This document shows, piece by piece, positions 14,166 through 41,387 of a stretch of DNA of 64,000 bases (the first letter of the stretch is position 1; every line of letters begins with the position of its first letter). The stretch is from Candidatus Avelusimicrobium pullicaecorum (GTDB lineage: Bacteria; Elusimicrobiota; Elusimicrobia; Elusimicrobiales; Elusimicrobiaceae). The position numbers and the translations under genes were made by a program. Under the pieces are notes generated by a model. That model did no database searches and was not told the origin of the DNA. It worked only from the letters and a program-made list of their open reading frames with translations. Location of the stretch: contig CALUQD010000004.1 of NCBI GenBank assembly GCA_944322825.1, forward strand, positions 1 to 64,000, written 5' to 3'.

Positions 14166-14287
14166 CGTAAAATCCTCCGTTGTTTTATCGTAGCAAATTT
14201 TCCGAAAGTTGCCGCTGTTTGGGTGCGGCAAAAAAAGGTTAGACGGTTTTTCCGTACGCACGCGGCCGTGCGCGTGTACTTATTATG

Positions 14288-14316
14288 TTGCAACAGCGGG
14301 TGGAATTTATTAAGAT
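14288..14316 (+). promoter_or_regulatory. Promoter of the multi-PAS gene
   Basis: TTGCAA (14288-14293), a 17-bp spacer and TAAGAT (14311-14316), about 40 bp upstream of the start. Confidence 0.45.
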
Positions 14317-14354
14317 ATATCCGTGCCGTTCTATTTTACGCCAAAAGAGGGCTT

Positions 14355-17300
14355 ATGTCCAATAACATTTTTTCATTTTTCTCTAAAAAAGATACTCCCG
14401 CGCCGCAAGTAATCAAAACGCTCACGCCGGAAATGCTGGCTTTTTTGCAGCAGTTCCCTACCGCTTTGCTGCTGTTAGATGCCACCGGCAAAATTATTTT
14501 TGCTAATGAAAGCGCCGCCGCCGTGTTGCATACGGAAGTTTCGTCTTTAAACGGCACCCACGTGGACCGCCTGGGCCTTACGATGCCCCAGGTGCGTGCC
14601 ATGGCGGAGGACAAAACCGCCCGCAACACCGTCATTCGGCTGGTCAACCGCAACGCCGATGAAGTATACGTCAGCGCCGGCGCCGGTATTTTGGCCTCCA
14701 CGCCGTTTATTATGCTTACGCTCGAGCCGGTGCCGCTGTTTAAGCAAATGAACATTGAAAAAAACTTTTTGCGCGCCGTGTTTGACGGCTATCCCGTGCC
14801 CGTAACGGTGCAGAACTTGGCCGGCGTTTGCACCTTATGGAACACCCAGGCGGAAAAAATGTTCGGTTTTAAAGCGAACGATACGCAAGGAAAAAGCGTA
14901 TATGATTTTTTGCCCAAGGCCATTGTCCCTTCCGTACAGCGGTTGGACAGTGAAGTGCGCGAAAAACATCATCCGCGGGAAAATGTGCTGTTGTCGTATA
15001 AAAACGCCAAAGGCGAAGAACGCACCTTAAACGTTACCAAGGTGCTTGCCCCCGGCGAAAAGGGGCACGGCCAGTCCATTTTGACGGTGTATGTGGACGT
15101 AACCGCCCGCCAACAGTACGAACAGGACTTGCTGCAAAACCGCACCTTGCTGCGCGCCGTATTGGATAACGTACCGCTGGGGCTGTATACCCGCGACTGC
15201 GACCACAAAATGACTTTCTTTAATCGTCAAAGTATGGCGGTGCTGGGAGAAACGGACATAAAATGCGTCAATACGCCGCACCCGCATCAAGATCCGCACG
15301 TGGTGGAAAATAACCGCCTGCGCGAAGAAATGGTGCTGAAAGAAGGAAAAATCAAGGATTATCCCGAAGAAGTGTACGTGGACCACGACGGAAATGAGAA
15401 AATTTTGCACTTGATTAAAGTGCCTTTGATGGATGCCGGACCTAAGCCGTTGGTGCTTTCCATCGTGGAAGATATTACCGACCGCCGTCGGCAGGAAAAA
15501 GAAATCGCCCGTGCCAACAGTTTTTTAACGGCTATCGTGCAAAATGCGCCTATCGGCCTGTATGCCCGCGCGGCGGACGGCCGGATGCTGCTGCGCAATA
15601 AGCAGTGTGAAGAAATTTTTGGCGAAGTGTCGGACAAAGCCTTCGACGCTACCGGTGCCTTACCGCACGAAACGCCCGAACAAGTGCACGAGTATATTAT
15701 GCGCGAGCGCGCCCTTTTGGACAGCGGCAAAACGCTGGATATCCCGGAGGAAGAATATATCACCGGTTCCGGCCAAAAGAAACTGCTGCATATGGTAAAA
15801 GTGCCGGTGCGCGGCGAAAACGGCGAACCGCAGTTTGTTGTAACTTTGGTGGAAGATATTACCGAAAAGAAAGCCCAGGAACGCGCCTTAATTGAAACCA
15901 AAAATTTCTTGCAAACCTTGCTGGACCAAGTGCCGGTGGCCATTTATGCACGCGGGCAGGATGATAAACTTTCGTTTATCAACCGCCGTGCGCACGAATT
16001 ATTCCCGGATGAACGGGAATATCAGGCCAAGGACGATTTTTACGGCCAACGCGAAAAAGCCATCTTCCGCGATGGGAAAATTGTGGAATTCCCCGAAGAA
16101 TGGTACACTACCTTGCGCGGAGATAAAATTTTGCTTCACCTCATCAAAGCCCCCGTGTTCGACAAAGAAGGCAAGCCCTTTATGGTGCTGACGGTGGCGG
16201 AGGACATCACCGAAAAGAAAGCCCAGGAAAAAGCCGTTATGGATGCCAAAAACTTCCTGCAGACGGTTATCAACAACCTGCCGGTTTCGCTTTCGGTAAA
16301 AGATTACGACGGTAAATATATCCTGTGGAATAAAAAGAGCGAAGAAGTGTTTGGCGTAATGGCCGATTCCGTCATCGGGCGCACTTCCTACCGGGCGGAT
16401 ATCAACAAGGACCAAGCCGAGTTCCTGCGTGAGGCGGACTTGCGCGTGTTTGAAAGCAAAAAGGAACAAGATATCCCGCAGGAACTGATTTCCACCGCCA
16501 GCGAAGGCGTGAAAATTATGCACACGGTCAAAACGCCGGTGTTTAATATGGACGGCACGCCCAATTGTCTGTTGGTCGTGTCGGAAGATATTACCGCCAA
16601 AACCAAGATGGAAAAACAAATCCGCGAAGCCAGCGACAAAAACACCTTGCTCGTGGAGAATGCCCGCGAAGGCATCGTCATCCTGGAAGACGCCAAAGTG
16701 ATTTATGCCAACAACGCCTTATGCCAGTTATTAGGGTATGAGGAGGTGAAAGACGTAAAAGGCAAGAGCCTTTCCGAACTGGTAACGGAAGACCACCGGA
16801 TGTTCTTAAAAGATAAATACGATGCCGTTTCGGCCGGTTCGGATGACGCTTCCAGTGCCATAGATGTGCGTTTCCTCAAACAAAACGGACAGGAAGTGGA
16901 AACCGAATTTGCGGCGGTGGCTTCGCGCTATTTGGGGCGGCGCATTGTGCTGTGCTTCGTGCGCGACGTAACCGCCTCCAACCGAATGCTGCGCGACGTA
17001 AAAACCGAACGGGAATGTTTCCGCTCGGCGTTTGAAAAGAGCGTTACGCCGGCGTTTATTATGACACATAAAGGCTACATCAGCGTGATGAACGAAGCCT
17101 GCCGTACGATGTTCCATTTTACGGAAGCGGATAAGAACTTCTACCGCAATGTGTATATGAAACCGGCCATTTCACTGGCGGCGCGCCGGCAGCTTAAAGC
17201 GGGCAAACCGGCCCATATGGATTATATGTTCGATTTCGACCGCGCGGTCAAAATGTTCCCTGGCCGTATAGAAGGCTCCGGCAAAATTCCGCTTTCGGTC

Positions 17301-19433
17301 AGCTTTGTGCCGATTAACAAACGCGACGCTAAAGACGGTACCGTAGAAGCCGATTACGTGGTGTTTTTGGAACGCAAAGGAAATTCTTGCCCGCCGCCTC
17401 CGCCGGCTGTTCCGGCGGCGTCGGTTGTAGTGTTGGCCCCGCGTGCGCCGCAGCCGCCGGCTGCGCCCAGCTGGGTAATCAGCAAATCGGCTAGCGAAAT
17501 GCTGGTGCTTCCCAACAGCGAGCCGTATGTGCTGTGCGGAAAAGAATGGCAAATTGAAGTCTGCAACGATTTGTTCTGCTCACTGTGCCAATTAAGCGAA
17601 CAGGAACTGCTTGGGCAGGATTTGCGGTGTTTGTTTGAGGCTGAATCGCTCCCGCGCCTGGAAGAAGATTTGAAATCCTTGGCGAAGGACGGTTCTCTGG
17701 TCAACCGGGAATATCGCATCAATCTGGCCAGCGGGCTGGAACATACGACGGTGCGCGTAACGGCTATCAAGGAAGCGGACGGACGGTATCTGTTTGTGCT
17801 GCGCAATATGGCGTTTCACCGGCAGATTATGAAGATTTTGGAAGAACGTTCCGCCCAGCTCAATGCCTTGTTGGAAGCTACGGATGGCATCGTCTTTGGC
17901 GTTTTGTTTGAAAACGGACGCTTTGGCCATATTGAACAATCCAATAAGTTCCTTTCGCGCAAGTTGGGTTTCTCGCACGACGAATTGGTGCATATGCCAT
18001 TTAAAGATTTGTTCTTCGACAAAGGGCACAATTCGGCCCGCTGCAGCGAAGTCCTCTCCCGCGCCCAGGAAGAAGTGGCCACTCAGGGCAAAACTTCTTT
18101 CAAACTGTCTGTACGCAAGAAGGACGGATCTTCGTTTGAGGCGCAAGTGGTCGTCACGGCGATGGATTTGCCGACGCAGGATGAAGTGTTGGTGGTGTTG
18201 CGGGATCTGACGGATGAAATTAAGGAAGTGGCCCACGATTCCCAGGAAGCGCAGGAACTTAAAAGCGTCCGGCAGGCGCTGCCCGGATTGTACTTAAAAA
18301 CCGACAGCGACGGCCGCGTACTGGAAGTATATTCCAATCTTTCTTACCTGGATAACACCCGCGCCGTGCAGACGTTTTTGGATAAAAAACCCGGCGTTTA
18401 TTGGCCGCAGGAAGCCGCTTCCCGCGCGTTGTTTGCCATCAAAGAGGCATTGTCTATTAACGTAAGCACGCGTTTTGAATTTGAATGGAAAGTGGAGGGG
18501 CAGCTGCGCTATTTTGAAGCGATGGCTACGCCCATTACCGGCCGTGCCGAAACGGTGCTGTGGGTAAAAGATGTATCGGATAAGCACGCGTACGACGAAA
18601 AAATCCATCAGCTCTACCGCGTTGCCAGCGAGCCGGGGCTTTCGATTACCGAACAGGTGGATAAAATCCTGGCGTTTGGGCTGAAACATTTTTCGGCCGA
18701 TATTGGGCTGGTCATTCGCTTTGACAAAGGTCGCCTGGGGCTGGAAAGCCATATTGTATATACCACGCCGAACGAGTTGAATGTGGAACGGTATATGACA
18801 TTCCCGATAGAAGAATGCCTGGTAGACGTACCGGACGGCAATGTGGTGTTGTGGACGGATTTAGCCAACACCAACTGTACCCACTGTTTGCATAAGGAAA
18901 AAGGCTTCGGCGCTATGTTGGCGGCCCCGCTGTACGTAAACGGCAAGGCGCAGGGAGCGTTGTGTTTTGCCTCTTGCCAACCGCGCAGCAGCTTTGGGCA
19001 GGGAGCGGAAGAAATGATGGGTATTATGGCCCGCCTGCTGAGCCTGCGCATTGAGTTGCGCCAGACGGGCAAAATGCTCAGCGACGCTTCCCGTTCTCTG
19101 GCGCGGACACTGGAATATGTGGAAATGCCGGCCGTGATGATGGACTTGGATTACCAAGTAACCTTTGCCAACCGGCCGTTTTTGGAAGTGACCGGCTTGC
19201 GCACCAATAACATTTTAGGGCGCGATTTCTTCGGCGAAGTCATCCGCAACGAGGACCTTTCCAAACAGATGTTCAAAGCGGCCGAGAATTCCGCCGCCGG
19301 AAACGCTTTCCAGGTGCGGATGGACTTGCTGCACGAAAACGGCTTGTACGAAGATACCGGCTGGGACGTGTTCGCCTGCAAAGACGCCGACGGCAAGGTG
19401 GACGGCTACGCGCTGATAGCGTCTGAAGGCTGA
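14355..19433 (+). CDS. Giant multi-PAS/GAF protein without output domain
   Basis: A 1692-aa soluble protein; the ATG at 14355 follows AGAGGG, and upstream in-frame starts add a basic stretch without a ribosome site. About twelve PAS-like segments can be followed by the repeated F(L)xxxxxxxPV..Y and W/FN...E..FG pattern, starting near residues 35, 136, 259, 388, 516, 632, 763, 887, 1055, 1169, 1301 and 1582. PAS 3-6 end in near-identical EDIT(E/D/A)KK linkers. A proline-rich stretch (about 1011-1040) and a GAF domain (about 1429-1575, with a Cys pair in NTNCTHCLHK) interrupt the row. The last PAS runs to the stop. No histidine kinase, GGDEF, EAL, HTH or methyl-accepting domain and no membrane helix is visible. 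It may act in trans as a sensor or scaffold. Confidence 0.85.
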   Translation: MSNNIFSFFSKKDTPAPQVIKTLTPEMLAFLQQFPTALLLLDATGKIIFANESAAAVLHTEVSSLNGTHVDRLGLTMPQVRAMAEDKTARNTVIRLVNRNADEVYVSAGAGILASTPFIMLTLEPVPLFKQMNIEKNFLRAVFDGYPVPVTVQNLAGVCTLWNTQAEKMFGFKANDTQGKSVYDFLPKAIVPSVQRLDSEVREKHHPRENVLLSYKNAKGEERTLNVTKVLAPGEKGHGQSILTVYVDVTARQQYEQDLLQNRTLLRAVLDNVPLGLYTRDCDHKMTFFNRQSMAVLGETDIKCVNTPHPHQDPHVVENNRLREEMVLKEGKIKDYPEEVYVDHDGNEKILHLIKVPLMDAGPKPLVLSIVEDITDRRRQEKEIARANSFLTAIVQNAPIGLYARAADGRMLLRNKQCEEIFGEVSDKAFDATGALPHETPEQVHEYIMRERALLDSGKTLDIPEEEYITGSGQKKLLHMVKVPVRGENGEPQFVVTLVEDITEKKAQERALIETKNFLQTLLDQVPVAIYARGQDDKLSFINRRAHELFPDEREYQAKDDFYGQREKAIFRDGKIVEFPEEWYTTLRGDKILLHLIKAPVFDKEGKPFMVLTVAEDITEKKAQEKAVMDAKNFLQTVINNLPVSLSVKDYDGKYILWNKKSEEVFGVMADSVIGRTSYRADINKDQAEFLREADLRVFESKKEQDIPQELISTASEGVKIMHTVKTPVFNMDGTPNCLLVVSEDITAKTKMEKQIREASDKNTLLVENAREGIVILEDAKVIYANNALCQLLGYEEVKDVKGKSLSELVTEDHRMFLKDKYDAVSAGSDDASSAIDVRFLKQNGQEVETEFAAVASRYLGRRIVLCFVRDVTASNRMLRDVKTERECFRSAFEKSVTPAFIMTHKGYISVMNEACRTMFHFTEADKNFYRNVYMKPAISLAARRQLKAGKPAHMDYMFDFDRAVKMFPGRIEGSGKIPLSVSFVPINKRDAKDGTVEADYVVFLERKGNSCPPPPPAVPAASVVVLAPRAPQPPAAPSWVISKSASEMLVLPNSEPYVLCGKEWQIEVCNDLFCSLCQLSEQELLGQDLRCLFEAESLPRLEEDLKSLAKDGSLVNREYRINLASGLEHTTVRVTAIKEADGRYLFVLRNMAFHRQIMKILEERSAQLNALLEATDGIVFGVLFENGRFGHIEQSNKFLSRKLGFSHDELVHMPFKDLFFDKGHNSARCSEVLSRAQEEVATQGKTSFKLSVRKKDGSSFEAQVVVTAMDLPTQDEVLVVLRDLTDEIKEVAHDSQEAQELKSVRQALPGLYLKTDSDGRVLEVYSNLSYLDNTRAVQTFLDKKPGVYWPQEAASRALFAIKEALSINVSTRFEFEWKVEGQLRYFEAMATPITGRAETVLWVKDVSDKHAYDEKIHQLYRVASEPGLSITEQVDKILAFGLKHFSADIGLVIRFDKGRLGLESHIVYTTPNELNVERYMTFPIEECLVDVPDGNVVLWTDLANTNCTHCLHKEKGFGAMLAAPLYVNGKAQGALCFASCQPRSSFGQGAEEMMGIMARLLSLRIELRQTGKMLSDASRSLARTLEYVEMPAVMMDLDYQVTFANRPFLEVTGLRTNNILGRDFFGEVIRNEDLSKQMFKAAENSAAGNAFQVRMDLLHENGLYEDTGWDVFACKDADGKVDGYALIASEG

Positions 19434-23866: not shown

Positions 23867-24198
23867 TGTACGGGAGCGCCATATGCCGGAAATTCTATGT
23901 TCGTTTAGGTGTGAGCGGGCCCAATGTTGGGCGGCCCGCCGCGGGCCGCTGCACTGCGTGTGCATTCTAACGGGTGGTTCCCTTTTTGCGTAAGCCACCG
24001 TATTAGGCAAAACCCTGTCCGAGGCAGAGCTTCCGGGCCTGGAAGGCCGTTGCGTAAGGGTGCGACATTCCAAAAACAGTGTGGCCCAGCTAGTCGTGTT
24101 AACGGGTATAGAGTGGGGAACCCCGGCTCGGGGTGCCCTTTTTCTGGCGCCAGAAAAAGGGCGAAAAAGAGCGCCGGCCCAGGGCCCCATAAAAATCA

Positions 24199-24276
24199 CT
24201 TCCCAGCGGGAAATTTTATAACTCGTGCAGGCTTTGCCCCGCACTCAAACAATAAAATTTCTAATCCGCTTGGAAG
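24199..24276. repeat. Large hairpin of the type B repeat
   Basis: CTTCCCAGCGG pairs with CCGCTTGGAAG (one mismatch), GAAATTTTAT with ATAAAATTTC (perfect), and GTGC with GCAC. The outer and inner stems differ from the copies at 39950 and 40391 mostly by compensatory changes. Confidence 0.7.
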
Positions 24277-24457
24277 GCTTTTTATAGGCGGGGCAAAAGG
24301 GCCGGATAAACGGCAACGGCAACAACGCAAGCGGAAAACAGCTTTCTTTTTGAAACAGCGCGACATTCCAAAAACAGTGTGCCCCCAGGAGTCGTGTTAG
24401 CGGGTAAAGGAAGTGGAGCCCAGCCTCTGGCTCTTTTGCGTAAACATTCCCAACGGG

Positions 24458-24980
24458 TTGTTCCCTATTGCGTAAGCACTGTATTGGGCGGAACCCTGTC
24501 CGAGGCAGCGCTCCGCGGCCTGGAAGGCCGTTGCGTAAGGGCGCGACAATGCGAAAATAGTGTGGCCCCACTAATCGTGTTAGCGGGCATAGAGTGGGGA
24601 GCCCAGGCTCTGGGCTCTTGCAAAAATATCCTCAACAATTTGTTCCCTATTGCGTCAGCACCGTACCTGACGCAACCCTGTCCGAGGCAGAGCTTCCGGG
24701 CCTGGAAGGCCGTTGCGTAAGGGCGCGACAATGCGAAAGTAGTGTGGCTCCACTAATCGTGTTAGCGGGCCAGGGAAGGGGAGCCCAGGCTCTGGGCTCT
24801 TGCAAAAATATCCTCAACAATTTGTTCCCTATTGTGTAAGCACCGTATTTTGCAAAACCCTGTCCGAGGCAGCGCTCCGCGGCCTGGAAGGCCGTTGCGT
24901 AAGAGCGCGACATTTCAAAAACAGTGTGGCCCAGCTAGTCGTGTTAACGGGTATAGAGTGGGGAACCCCGGCTCGGGGCC
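24458..24980. repeat. Tandem 182-bp type A units
   Basis: Three consecutive units begin with TTGTTCCCTATTG at 24458, 24640 and 24822, exactly 182 bp apart. The third runs into the promoter of the pilin-like gene. Each has a CGGCCT/AGGCCG hairpin and a GCT-loop hairpin. Confidence 0.8.
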
Positions 24981-25008
24981 TTGATTTGTTTTTTTTTTTT
25001 GATACACT
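24981..25008 (+). promoter_or_regulatory. Promoter-like element with T12 spacer
   Basis: TTGATT (24981-24986) and TACACT (25003-25008) are 16 bp apart, and 12 consecutive T residues (24989-25000) lie in the spacer. The same arrangement with T12 precedes the pilin-like gene at 40878. Slippage would change the spacer length, a known way of phase-varying fimbrial promoters. Confidence 0.5.
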
Positions 25009-25086
25009 GGCCCTAGCGTTGATTTTTGGGCTGTTAATTATTGGGCTGTAGTTAAGCACTAAAATCAACTTGCTAAGGAGTTTTTA

Positions 25087-39638: not shown

Positions 39639-39885
39639 GGGTATTTTTGGGGGCGCCAAAAAGTACCCCAAAATGCCCGCGAGCCGAAAGGCTGTGTTGG
39701 CCGCGAGCGGCCGCGCGGGAACCGTGTGGCCCCACTAATCGTGTCAGCGGGCCTAGAGAAGGGAGGCCAGGCTCTGGCCCGGCTCGCCTTTTGCGCGAGT
39801 ATCCTCAACTAGTTGTTCCCTAATTGCGTAAGCACCGTATTTTGCAAAACCCTGTCCGAGGCAGAGTGCCTGCCCCCGGCAAGGG

Positions 39886-39915
39886 GGTACTTTTTCTGGC
39901 AGCAGAAAAAGTACC
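39886..39915. repeat. Small hairpin of the type B repeat
   Basis: GGTACTTTTTCTG pairs perfectly with CAGAAAAAGTACC. In array 1 the outer bases of the same hairpin are GCCC/GGGC, so pairing is kept although bases changed. Confidence 0.7.
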
Positions 39916-39949
39916 AAAAAGACTGCGCCCCAGGGAGCCACAAAAATCA

Positions 39950-40024
39950 CTTTCAAACGGGAAATTTTATAACTCGCGCGGGTATCCCGCGCTCAAACAA
40001 TAAAATTTCTAATCCGTTTGAAAG
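39950..40024. repeat. Large hairpin of the type B repeat, copy 1 in array 2
   Basis: CTTTCAAACGG/CCGTTTGAAAG, GAAATTTTAT/ATAAAATTTC and GCGCGGG-TAT-CCCGCGC are all perfect stems, nested within 75 nt. Confidence 0.75.
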
Positions 40025-40390
40025 GCTTTTTGTAGACGGCTCTAAAGGGGCGGTTCAACGGCAACAACAACAGCCACGACTACGACAACGACAAAGGCCA
40101 TGACACAAGCGGAAACAACTTTCCTTTTGAAACGGCGCGGCCGCGCGGGAACCGTGTGGCTCCACTAGTCGTGTCAGCGGGCCTAGAGAAGGGAGGCCAG
40201 CCTCTGGCCCGGCTCGCCTTTTGCGCGAGTATCCTCAACTAGTTGTTCCCTAATTGCGTAAGCACCGTATTAGGCAACCCCTGTCCGAGGCAGAACGCTT
40301 GCCCCCGGCAAGGGGGTACTTTTTCTGGCAGCAGAAAAAGTACCAAAGAAGGGAGGCCAGGCTCTGGCCCCCAGGGAGCCACAAAAATCA

Positions 40391-40465
40391 CTTTCAAACG
40401 GGAAATTTTATAACTCGCGCGGGTATCCCGCGCTCAAACAATAAAATTTCTAATCCGTTTGAAAG
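40391..40465. repeat. Large hairpin of the type B repeat, copy 2 in array 2
   Basis: Sequence and pairing are identical to the copy at 39950-40024. Confidence 0.75.
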
Positions 40466-40843
40466 GCTTTTTGTAGACGGCTCTAAAGGGGCGGTTCAAC
40501 GGCAACAACAACAGCCACGACTACGACAACGACAACGGCCATGACACAAGCGGAAACAACTTTCCTTTTGAAACGGCGCGACAGCGCGGGAACCGTGTGG
40601 CCCCACTAATCGTGTCAGCGGGCCTAGAGAAGGGAGGCCAGGCTCTGGCCCGGCTCGCCTTTTGCGCGAGTATCCTCAACTAGTTGTTCCCTAATTGCGT
40701 AAGCACCGTATTTTGCAAAACCCTGTCCGAGGCAGAGCTCCGCGGCCTGGAAGGCTGTTGCGCAAGAGCGCGACAGTGCGGAAACAGTGTGGCTCAACCA
40801 GTCGTGTTAGCGGGCAAAGGAAAGGGAGCCCAGGCTCTGGGCC

Positions 40844-40871
40844 TTGATTTGTTTTTTTTTTTTGATAAATT
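40844..40871 (+). promoter_or_regulatory. Promoter-like element with T12 spacer
   Basis: TTGATT (40844-40849) and TAAATT (40866-40871) are 16 bp apart, and the spacer contains 12 T residues (40852-40863). It matches the element at 24981-25008. The -10 ends 6 nt before the first pilin ATG. Confidence 0.5.
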
Positions 40872-40877
40872 TTGGCT

Positions 40878-41387
40878 ATGAACAAAATTTATCAAAAAAC
40901 ATTCCCGGCAATGAAAAACGCCGGATTTACGCTAATAGAGCTATTAGTAGTGGTTTTAATCATTGGTATCTTGGCGGCGGTAGCGCTGCCGCAATATCAA
41001 GTGGCGGTAGCCAAAAGCCGCACGGCCGAAGCCATAACCATTTTAAAAGCCATTACGGACGCGCAGGAAGTTTATTATATGGCTAACGGAACCTATACCA
41101 ACGATTTGGCCGATTTGGATATTGCCGTGGAAGATACCAAAGCGTGGCGTTTTATGTGTTGGAGCAACCGCACCTGTGGGGCTTTCGCTAAAGTTCAAAA
41201 TATCCCTTCTGCTCTGGAATTTCATATGATAAATACGCCAGCTGGGTCCAATGCTACTTATAGCGGAAAGCATTGGTGCCGCGCCCATAAAACCAATACG
41301 ATAGGCATACAGATTTGTAAAACATATGGTCAGCTGGATACTACGGTTGGCTCCGCTTCAGATACCTCATATTATTTAATGAACTGA
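40878..41387 (+). CDS. Type IV pilin-like protein
   Basis: A 169-aa protein with leader [16 protein letters not shown] followed by [16 protein letters not shown], cleavage after Gly16. An internal ATG at 40911 would give a shorter leader (MKNAG); neither has a clear ribosome site, and the upstream -10 6 nt before 40878 favours the longer one as leaderless. The first 40 mature residues are almost those of the 25087 gene. The C-terminal domain with four Cys (CWSNRTC and others) differs. It follows repeat array 2 and the T12 promoter. Confidence 0.85.

Follow-up and report, generated by a model that had tools for sequence, protein, structure and literature searches.

Structured repeat arrays and homopolymer-spacer promoters suggest a large switchable pilin gene set in Candidatus Avelusimicrobium pullicaecorum

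What role do two arrays of hairpin-forming repeats play in the genome of the Elusimicrobiota bacterium Candidatus Avelusimicrobium pullicaecorum? The arrays lie in a stretch of 64,000 nucleotides (assembly GCA_944322825.1, contig CALUQD010000004.1, positions 1 to 64,000; hereafter the window), and the first-pass annotation had presented them as structured repeats whose fold is selected. Its account of the sequence and the hairpins was accurate, but it did not mention a pilin promoter at the array ends. The arrays are not free-standing: each forms the 5' flank of a pilin gene, with a homopolymer-spaced promoter at its end. The hairpins that keep a GCT loop while the stem varies are present, as CCCCG-GCT-CGGGG at 24121 and 24966, GAGCCCAG-GCT-CTGGGCTC at 24599 and 24781, and GGCCAG-GCT-CTGGCC at 39765. 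The small hairpin of the second repeat type likewise varies as described, from GCCC...GGGC at 24136 to GTAC...GTAC at 39886.

A genome-wide profile search with nhmmer resolved both arrays, at 23969-24977 and at 39676-40840, into mosaics of the modules A1, A2, C and B (Table 1). In place of the two repeat types described earlier there are at least four modules, as A1 and A2 also occur singly and C and B have to be added. In a repeat search, a unit of about 182 nt in the first array recurred at 23952, 24433, 24615 and 24797 and was common to the array at 39677-40843; because this period is not divisible by 3, we rejected a reading of the array as a coding repeat. The 75-78-nt hairpin reported earlier is the inner portion of a fold of about 130 nt. 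In the genome (1.52 Mb in 80 contigs, about 87% complete), BLAST matched A 71 times and B 64 times, although the figure for B partly counts the palindrome twice. Many copies of A and B lie at contig ends, as expected from the tendency of repeats to break assemblies.

Table 1. Features of the two loci in the window; the limits of the array modules are approximate.
Feature	Positions	Strand	Basis
A1+A2 module, first unit of array 1	23969..24132	+	nhmmer genome-wide profile; repeat search
C hairpin GCCCTTTTTCTGGCGCCAGAAAAAGGGC of the C+B element	24132..24169	+	nhmmer profile; C-B spacing
B element: nested long hairpin, loop motif CTCG...CTCAAACA conserved	24178..24305	+	profile; structure test
A2 module alone	24346..24430	+	profile search
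A1+A2 module	24452..24613	+	repeat search; profile
A1+A2 module	24634..24795	+	repeat search; profile
A1+A2 module, terminal hairpin CCCCGGCTCGGGG adjoining promoter	24816..24977	+	repeat search; profile
Putative pilin promoter: -35 TTGATT 24981-24986; T12 24989-25000; extended -10 TGA-TACACT 25003-25008	24981..25008	+	sequence read directly
Putative 5' UTR: stem AGC-TTGATTTT / AAAATCAA-GCT from predicted +1, then AAGGAG	25015..25086	+	sequence
Pilin-like gene, 170 aa	25087..25599	+	Pfam N_methyl PF07963; TIGR02532
A2 module, start of array 2	39676..39777	+	repeat search; profile
A1 module	39807..39888	+	profile
C hairpin GGTACTTTTTCTGGCAGCAGAAAAAGTACC	39884..39921	+	profile; fold
B element	39929..40053	+	profile; structure test; fold
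A2 module	40123..40207	+	profile
A1 module	40237..40296	+	repeat search; BLAST
C hairpin	40313..40349	+	profile
B element	40370..40494	+	BLAST; profile
A2 module	40564..40648	+	profile
A1+A2 module, hairpin GCCCAGGCTCTGGGC adjoining promoter	40678..40840	+	profile
Putative pilin promoter: -35 TTGATT 40844-40849; T12 40852-40863; extended -10 TGA-TAAATT 40866-40871	40844..40871	+	sequence read directly
Palindrome GATAAATTTTG-8nt-CAAAATTTATC across -10 and start codon	40864..40893	.	sequence; retained at most class I sites
Pilin-like gene, predicted leaderless: ATG = predicted +1	40878..41387	+	Pfam N_methyl, Pilin_GH, ComP_DUS

The two genes downstream of the window arrays both carry the type IV pilin N-terminal motif (PF07963, TIGR02532), and the genome has about 65 pilin genes in all. 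Once flanks running off contigs were excluded, 57 of the 59 determinable A clusters in the genome had a T-tract promoter and/or a pilin gene directly downstream on the same strand, and no cluster was of mixed A orientation. An A1 or A2 module ends at most 40 nt from the -35 at 57 of the 61 promoters of this genome. L087 and L108 are the sole determinable A clusters with neither a pilin nor a T promoter next; that of L087 precedes an ORF starting MLNLTKAAKETVYM. Elsewhere in the window, a single ORF of 1736 codons occupies 14223-19433.

The pilin genes appear monocistronic, and their 3' flanks are unique, mostly opening with a terminator-like hairpin. These flanks bear on the possibility that the arrays are recombination substrates, supplying shared 5' homology or hairpin-induced breaks for pilin segment exchange, the process served by the guanine quadruplex of pilE in Neisseria. 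Long common 5' sequence and conserved pilin N-termini across the roughly 65 loci would suit such exchange, as would the apparent shuffling of modules between arrays; against it, we noticed no silent promoterless store, and with unique 3' flanks a two-sided cassette exchange lacks homology. Two-sided pilin cassettes were rejected for this reason, and we consider recombination a very improbable function of the arrays.

At the end of the arrays stands a stereotyped element, TTGAYTYG-T12-GA-TANNNT, and in the window every array is closed by TTGAYTYG-T12-GATANNNT. The reading of this element as a -35, a homopolymer spacer and an extended -10 is well supported by sequence. The pattern TTGAYTYG-Tn-GATA occurs at 63 sites in this genome; within the genus, 42 of 66 genomes contain it, and control patterns gave zero matches. 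At all 62 assessable sites of this genome a pilin ORF follows, its GFTLIE motif starting 55-100 nt downstream, and at the 63 sites the simple repeat sits inside the putative promoter, between -35 and -10. Downstream of the tract comes a TAnAnT hexamer (A in 28 and T in 32 of 33 distinct sites outside class I), with TG one base before it. The tract is T12 in 54 of 65 cases in this genome and T10, T11 or T13 in the remainder. Its length thus differs between loci, from T10 to T13 here and from T8 to T13 in other genomes, as seen in one draft genome per species, and the spacing between -35 and -10 is 16 bp at T12, 14 bp at T10 and 17 bp at T13. Runs of T or A of at least 9 occur only twice in the window, both in these promoters. 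A promoter consensus scan missed both window promoters, which scored 8/12 matches, under its threshold.

Two classes of pilin genes differ downstream of this element. In class II, the putative 5' UTR is conserved; its stem starts where transcription is predicted to begin and stops ahead of AAGGAG, which precedes the ATG. In class I, no Shine-Dalgarno sequence lies between tract and ATG, and the predicted start falls on the ATG, so that the transcripts would be leaderless. The palindrome GATAAATTTTG-8nt-CAAAATTTATC of class I sites may be an operator, because it persists, slightly altered, in genes whose ATG sits further down (L121, L202). One class I pilin of this genome, L065 (G000:C5:21000-25500), has lost the T tract and the usual -35 (CCCCTTGATAAATTTTG) and represents a natural promoter deletion.

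Relatives that lack the arrays retain the -35, the tract and the -10. Where the canonical motif is absent, the pilin promoters retain a homopolymer spacer: TTGACATCG-T11-GCTACATT in G004 (118 matches by a relaxed pattern), TTGACCCG-T12-GATACGAT in G054 and, with poly-A in place of poly-T, TTGACAAACC-A11-CAATAATA in G032 (53 matches), with related forms in G029 and G011. Relaxed patterns found the T form in 55 and the A form in 11 of the 66 genomes of the genus, where control patterns had zero matches. Among the determinable sites that we sampled, a pilin lay within 450 nt of 25 of 28 T sites and 21 of 25 A sites. In genus g5 of the same family, 9 of 18 genomes match the homopolymer promoter pattern; in the sister family none of 59 genomes does, and the control pattern matches 3 times there. 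Matches in GTDB r220 with a named group are uncultured Elusimicrobiales or Elusimicrobium assemblies. That different species use poly-T or poly-A while position and length stay the same is the best evidence that the homopolymer tract itself is the likely target of selection, as judged from these promoter comparisons.

A hairpin followed by T12 might also be read as a terminator and nothing else. We rejected this reading because array-less species retain the full promoter, many of them without a hairpin, and because poly-A substitutes for poly-T. In loci without A copies, a hairpin directly precedes the -35 at 38 of 66 promoters and is absent at 28, which indicates that this feature alone is not array-specific.

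The first-pass annotation had also held that covariation marks the fold as selected. Because the RNAalifold consensus was poor on the full B set, the structure of B (six helices, 47 pairs) was written by hand and then tested. In 24 diverse copies, 92.7% of the cells of the 47 pairs were paired, compared with 83.0 +/- 0.6% after shuffling and at most 55% when the structure was slid by moving partners one to three columns. Both sides had changed in 105 cells of these copies, against 31.5 in shuffled data. In a tree-aware simulation of our own, 4 of 46 B pairs were significant, as were 4 of 6 pairs of the A2 terminal hairpin, compared with 1 of 5 when the latter was slid by one. An unrestricted test of all pairs yielded one significant pair each in B, A2 and A1, the A1 pair being no base pair, so that A1 showed no significant covarying base pair in this test. 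With its one pair per element the all-pairs version was too stringent, and we relied on the test of proposed pairs and on orthologs.

Orthologous copies provide the cleanest test, since gene conversion can homogenise paralogs. B lies between glgP and trmL in six species, and its fold is kept there across a GC range of 27 to 46%: 91.8% of cells were paired in an alignment that was fitted to the B model and is hence biased towards it, whereas slid controls remained below 56%. At this site 22 pairs had changed on both sides, in 44 cells, compared with 11.7 and 14.5 after shuffling. C and B form one element of about 180 nt: C lies at most 60 nt 5' of B, mostly 8-9 nt, in 31 of the 41 full-length B copies that this genome holds, and the two modules also stay together at glgP-trmL in distant species. 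The predicted RNA fold of C+B has a free energy of -82.6 kcal/mol (z = -11). No Rfam family matched, the best scores being far under the gathering scores, and we accordingly rejected a known RNA family. These comparisons support selection on the B fold. The earlier claim therefore holds for B, in paralogs and orthologs, and for the A2 terminal hairpin, but found no support in A1. Template-switch correction of quasi-palindromes could yield compensatory pairs without selection; alone it is made an unlikely cause by the orthologs and by the CTCG / CTCAAACA loop, which is conserved and unpaired. The covariation of the C+B fold is well supported; the element has a loop motif that recurs, and Rfam does not contain it.

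The annotation had allowed for selection on either RNA or single-stranded DNA. G-U exceeds A-C in B weakly, with 64 versus 41 cells on the plus strand, while the occurrence of B in either orientation relative to pilin genes of other species speaks against a simple cis leader RNA. If the arrays were transcribed as structured leader or regulatory RNAs, attenuator or riboswitch-like, that control the downstream pilin, the covarying RNA-like folds, the stable C+B structure, the slight G-U excess and the attenuator-like succession of GC hairpin and T tract just before the gene would be accounted for. On the other hand, class I pilins lack a Shine-Dalgarno sequence between tract and ATG and are consistent with leaderless transcripts initiated at the T-tract promoter, promoters persist where arrays are missing, B is reversed in G004 and G025, and Rfam offers no match. 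We therefore regard a leader RNA as improbable.

When other Elusimicrobiota were searched for the same families, 35 of the genus's 66 genomes contained B, as did one other of 341 genomes of the phylum, a wider spread than that of A-type arrays. In species without A arrays, B lies 5' of pilin genes at 6 of 7 determinable sites in G004 and at 4 of 4 in G025, usually in reverse orientation. Some pilins of G004 (L346, L354, L357) have their leader-coding part lengthened by repeat-like insertions of the form CATTCCG...CGGAATG. At glgP-trmL, a non-pilin locus with no pilin adjoining, the gap measures mostly 102-120 nt without B and about 190-220 nt or more with it, which indicates that B comes and goes as a whole. 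In IMG/VR, 60 stretches (L272-L331) contain the loop core AACTCGCTTCGCTCARACA; L274, L277, L283 and L284 surround it with unrelated yet complementary stems, and L297 holds a full B (96.7 bits). The conserved loop motif, present also in these IMG/VR contigs, points to recognition by a protein or a mobility enzyme.

Much of this distribution could be expected if C+B above all, and also A1 and A2, were non-autonomous mobile or selfish repeats of REP or MITE type, spreading through copying, gathered at pilin promoters that tolerate them and useless to the pilins. Their fold would be retained for their own propagation, and pilin promoters are many, similar and tolerant; B is a discrete unit, present or absent in the orthologous gap, it lies either way round in different species, and its loop core recurs with unrelated stems as in a widespread element. 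However, the Y1 (RAYT) transposase PF01797 had no match in the assembly, about 87% complete, in a search whose control was positive in 5 of 14 known genomes. This extends to the whole assembly the earlier remark that no transposase is nearby, and on this ground a RAYT/REP identity was rejected. Nor did we see terminal inverted repeats accompanied by a duplicated target: the glgP-trmL gap occurs both filled and empty, yet inspection by eye revealed no target duplication. Moreover, position and orientation beside the pilin promoters are strict in this genome, and orthologous copies at one fixed site keep their fold, as a dead insertion would not. We judge the selfish reading possible, while leaning against it.

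Our preferred explanation, to which we give an even chance, is a contingency module of monocistronic pilins with slippage-prone promoters, in which the arrays serve as structured insulators. The sequence establishes the selection on the B fold, the position and orientation of the arrays, the anatomy of the promoter and the conserved T/A homopolymer in its spacer; promoter activity, slippage, phase variation and insulation are what we infer from these. The module, repeated about 65 times in this genome, would run from an upstream gene through a structured array and a promoter whose spacer is mostly T12 to a pilin that in most cases has a terminator of its own. If the homopolymer slipped in replication, the spacing between -35 and -10 would change, raising or lowering transcription of that pilin, and the population could combine its pilins into a large repertoire. 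The predominance of T12 could also reflect a fixed optimum. The covarying hairpins, several of which have the shape of a two-way terminator (A run, GC stem, T run), would most likely block read-through into pilins that are switched off.

Several observations bear on insulation. The inner B stems are flanked by AAAA in 63 and by TTTTT in 54 of 64 copies, and terminator-like sites number 6 against 2.3 +/- 1.5 expected and 7 against 3.0 +/- 1.6 expected. The site between upstream gene and promoter, the indifference to orientation and the order of A run, stem and T run fit insulating terminators that act both ways. The same features suit a selfish element tolerant of such sites almost equally well. 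Insulation explains neither the conserved B loop motif nor the array-free state of many species, and B at glgP-trmL counts against it.

A broader version of the contingency reading extends to both g1 and g5, genera of one Elusimicrobiales family. These bacteria would practise mass contingency, with up to more than 100 pilins per genome behind slippage-prone promoters, and some species would add a selected A1/A2/C+B insulator to each gene, C+B being an undescribed element whose loop motif recurs outside the lineage. We advance this version tentatively, as a plausible but somewhat doubtful generalisation.

Open-literature titles and abstracts gave nothing evident on phase variation or pilin promoters in Elusimicrobiota, and a literature search by sequence string returned nothing relevant. 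Judging from these searches, what is new is the scale, the gene family and the exchange between T and A, and together the loci suggest a large switchable set of surface-fibre genes that had not been described before. Most known cases of phase variation come from pathogens, whose switchable genes number between a few and some dozens. The gut bacteria of this group, known mostly through metagenome assemblies, carry dozens to more than 100 pilins on the same homopolymer-spacer promoter, which, if confirmed, would rank among the largest single-family contingency systems. Random switching of pilins in these lineages is a directly testable question through long-read metagenomes.

The arrays and the promoters each resemble known systems in part. 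REP/BIME, ERIC, RUP and Correia-type sequences are short structured intergenic repeats that occur in many palindromic, covarying copies and in mosaic arrays. The arrays described here share these properties, but they lie almost solely 5' of one gene family and in one orientation, evolve by compensatory change at a fixed orthologous site, and are accompanied by no RAYT transposase that we could find. Like bidirectional intrinsic terminators, the inner B and C hairpins are intergenic and are framed by an A run, a GC stem and a T run; unlike them, B has a much longer, nested fold with an asymmetric internal loop (CTCG / CTCAAACA) that terminators do not need. The pilE quadruplex of Neisseria also places folded DNA immediately ahead of a pilin gene, but here the structures are hairpins at dozens of expressed-type loci, and no silent cassettes were seen.

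The closest parallel to the putative promoter lies in phase-variable promoters, and among these, H. influenzae hif and Bordetella fim are switched by simple-sequence repeats. Transcription is set by the length of a promoter poly-A tract for Neisseria nspA (PMC6389960) and of a T tract for Helicobacter sabA (PMC4081817), so that the mechanism proposed here would be of a known kind. As in these four systems, a homopolymer or short repeat sits in the promoter of a surface-structure gene, its length differs among copies, here between loci, and that length would alter promoter geometry. In contrast to them, the Elusimicrobiales genomes, where switching is a prediction, place dozens to more than 100 pilin genes on one promoter design, in which the tract fills the spacer between -35 and -10 and consists of poly-T or poly-A according to the species.
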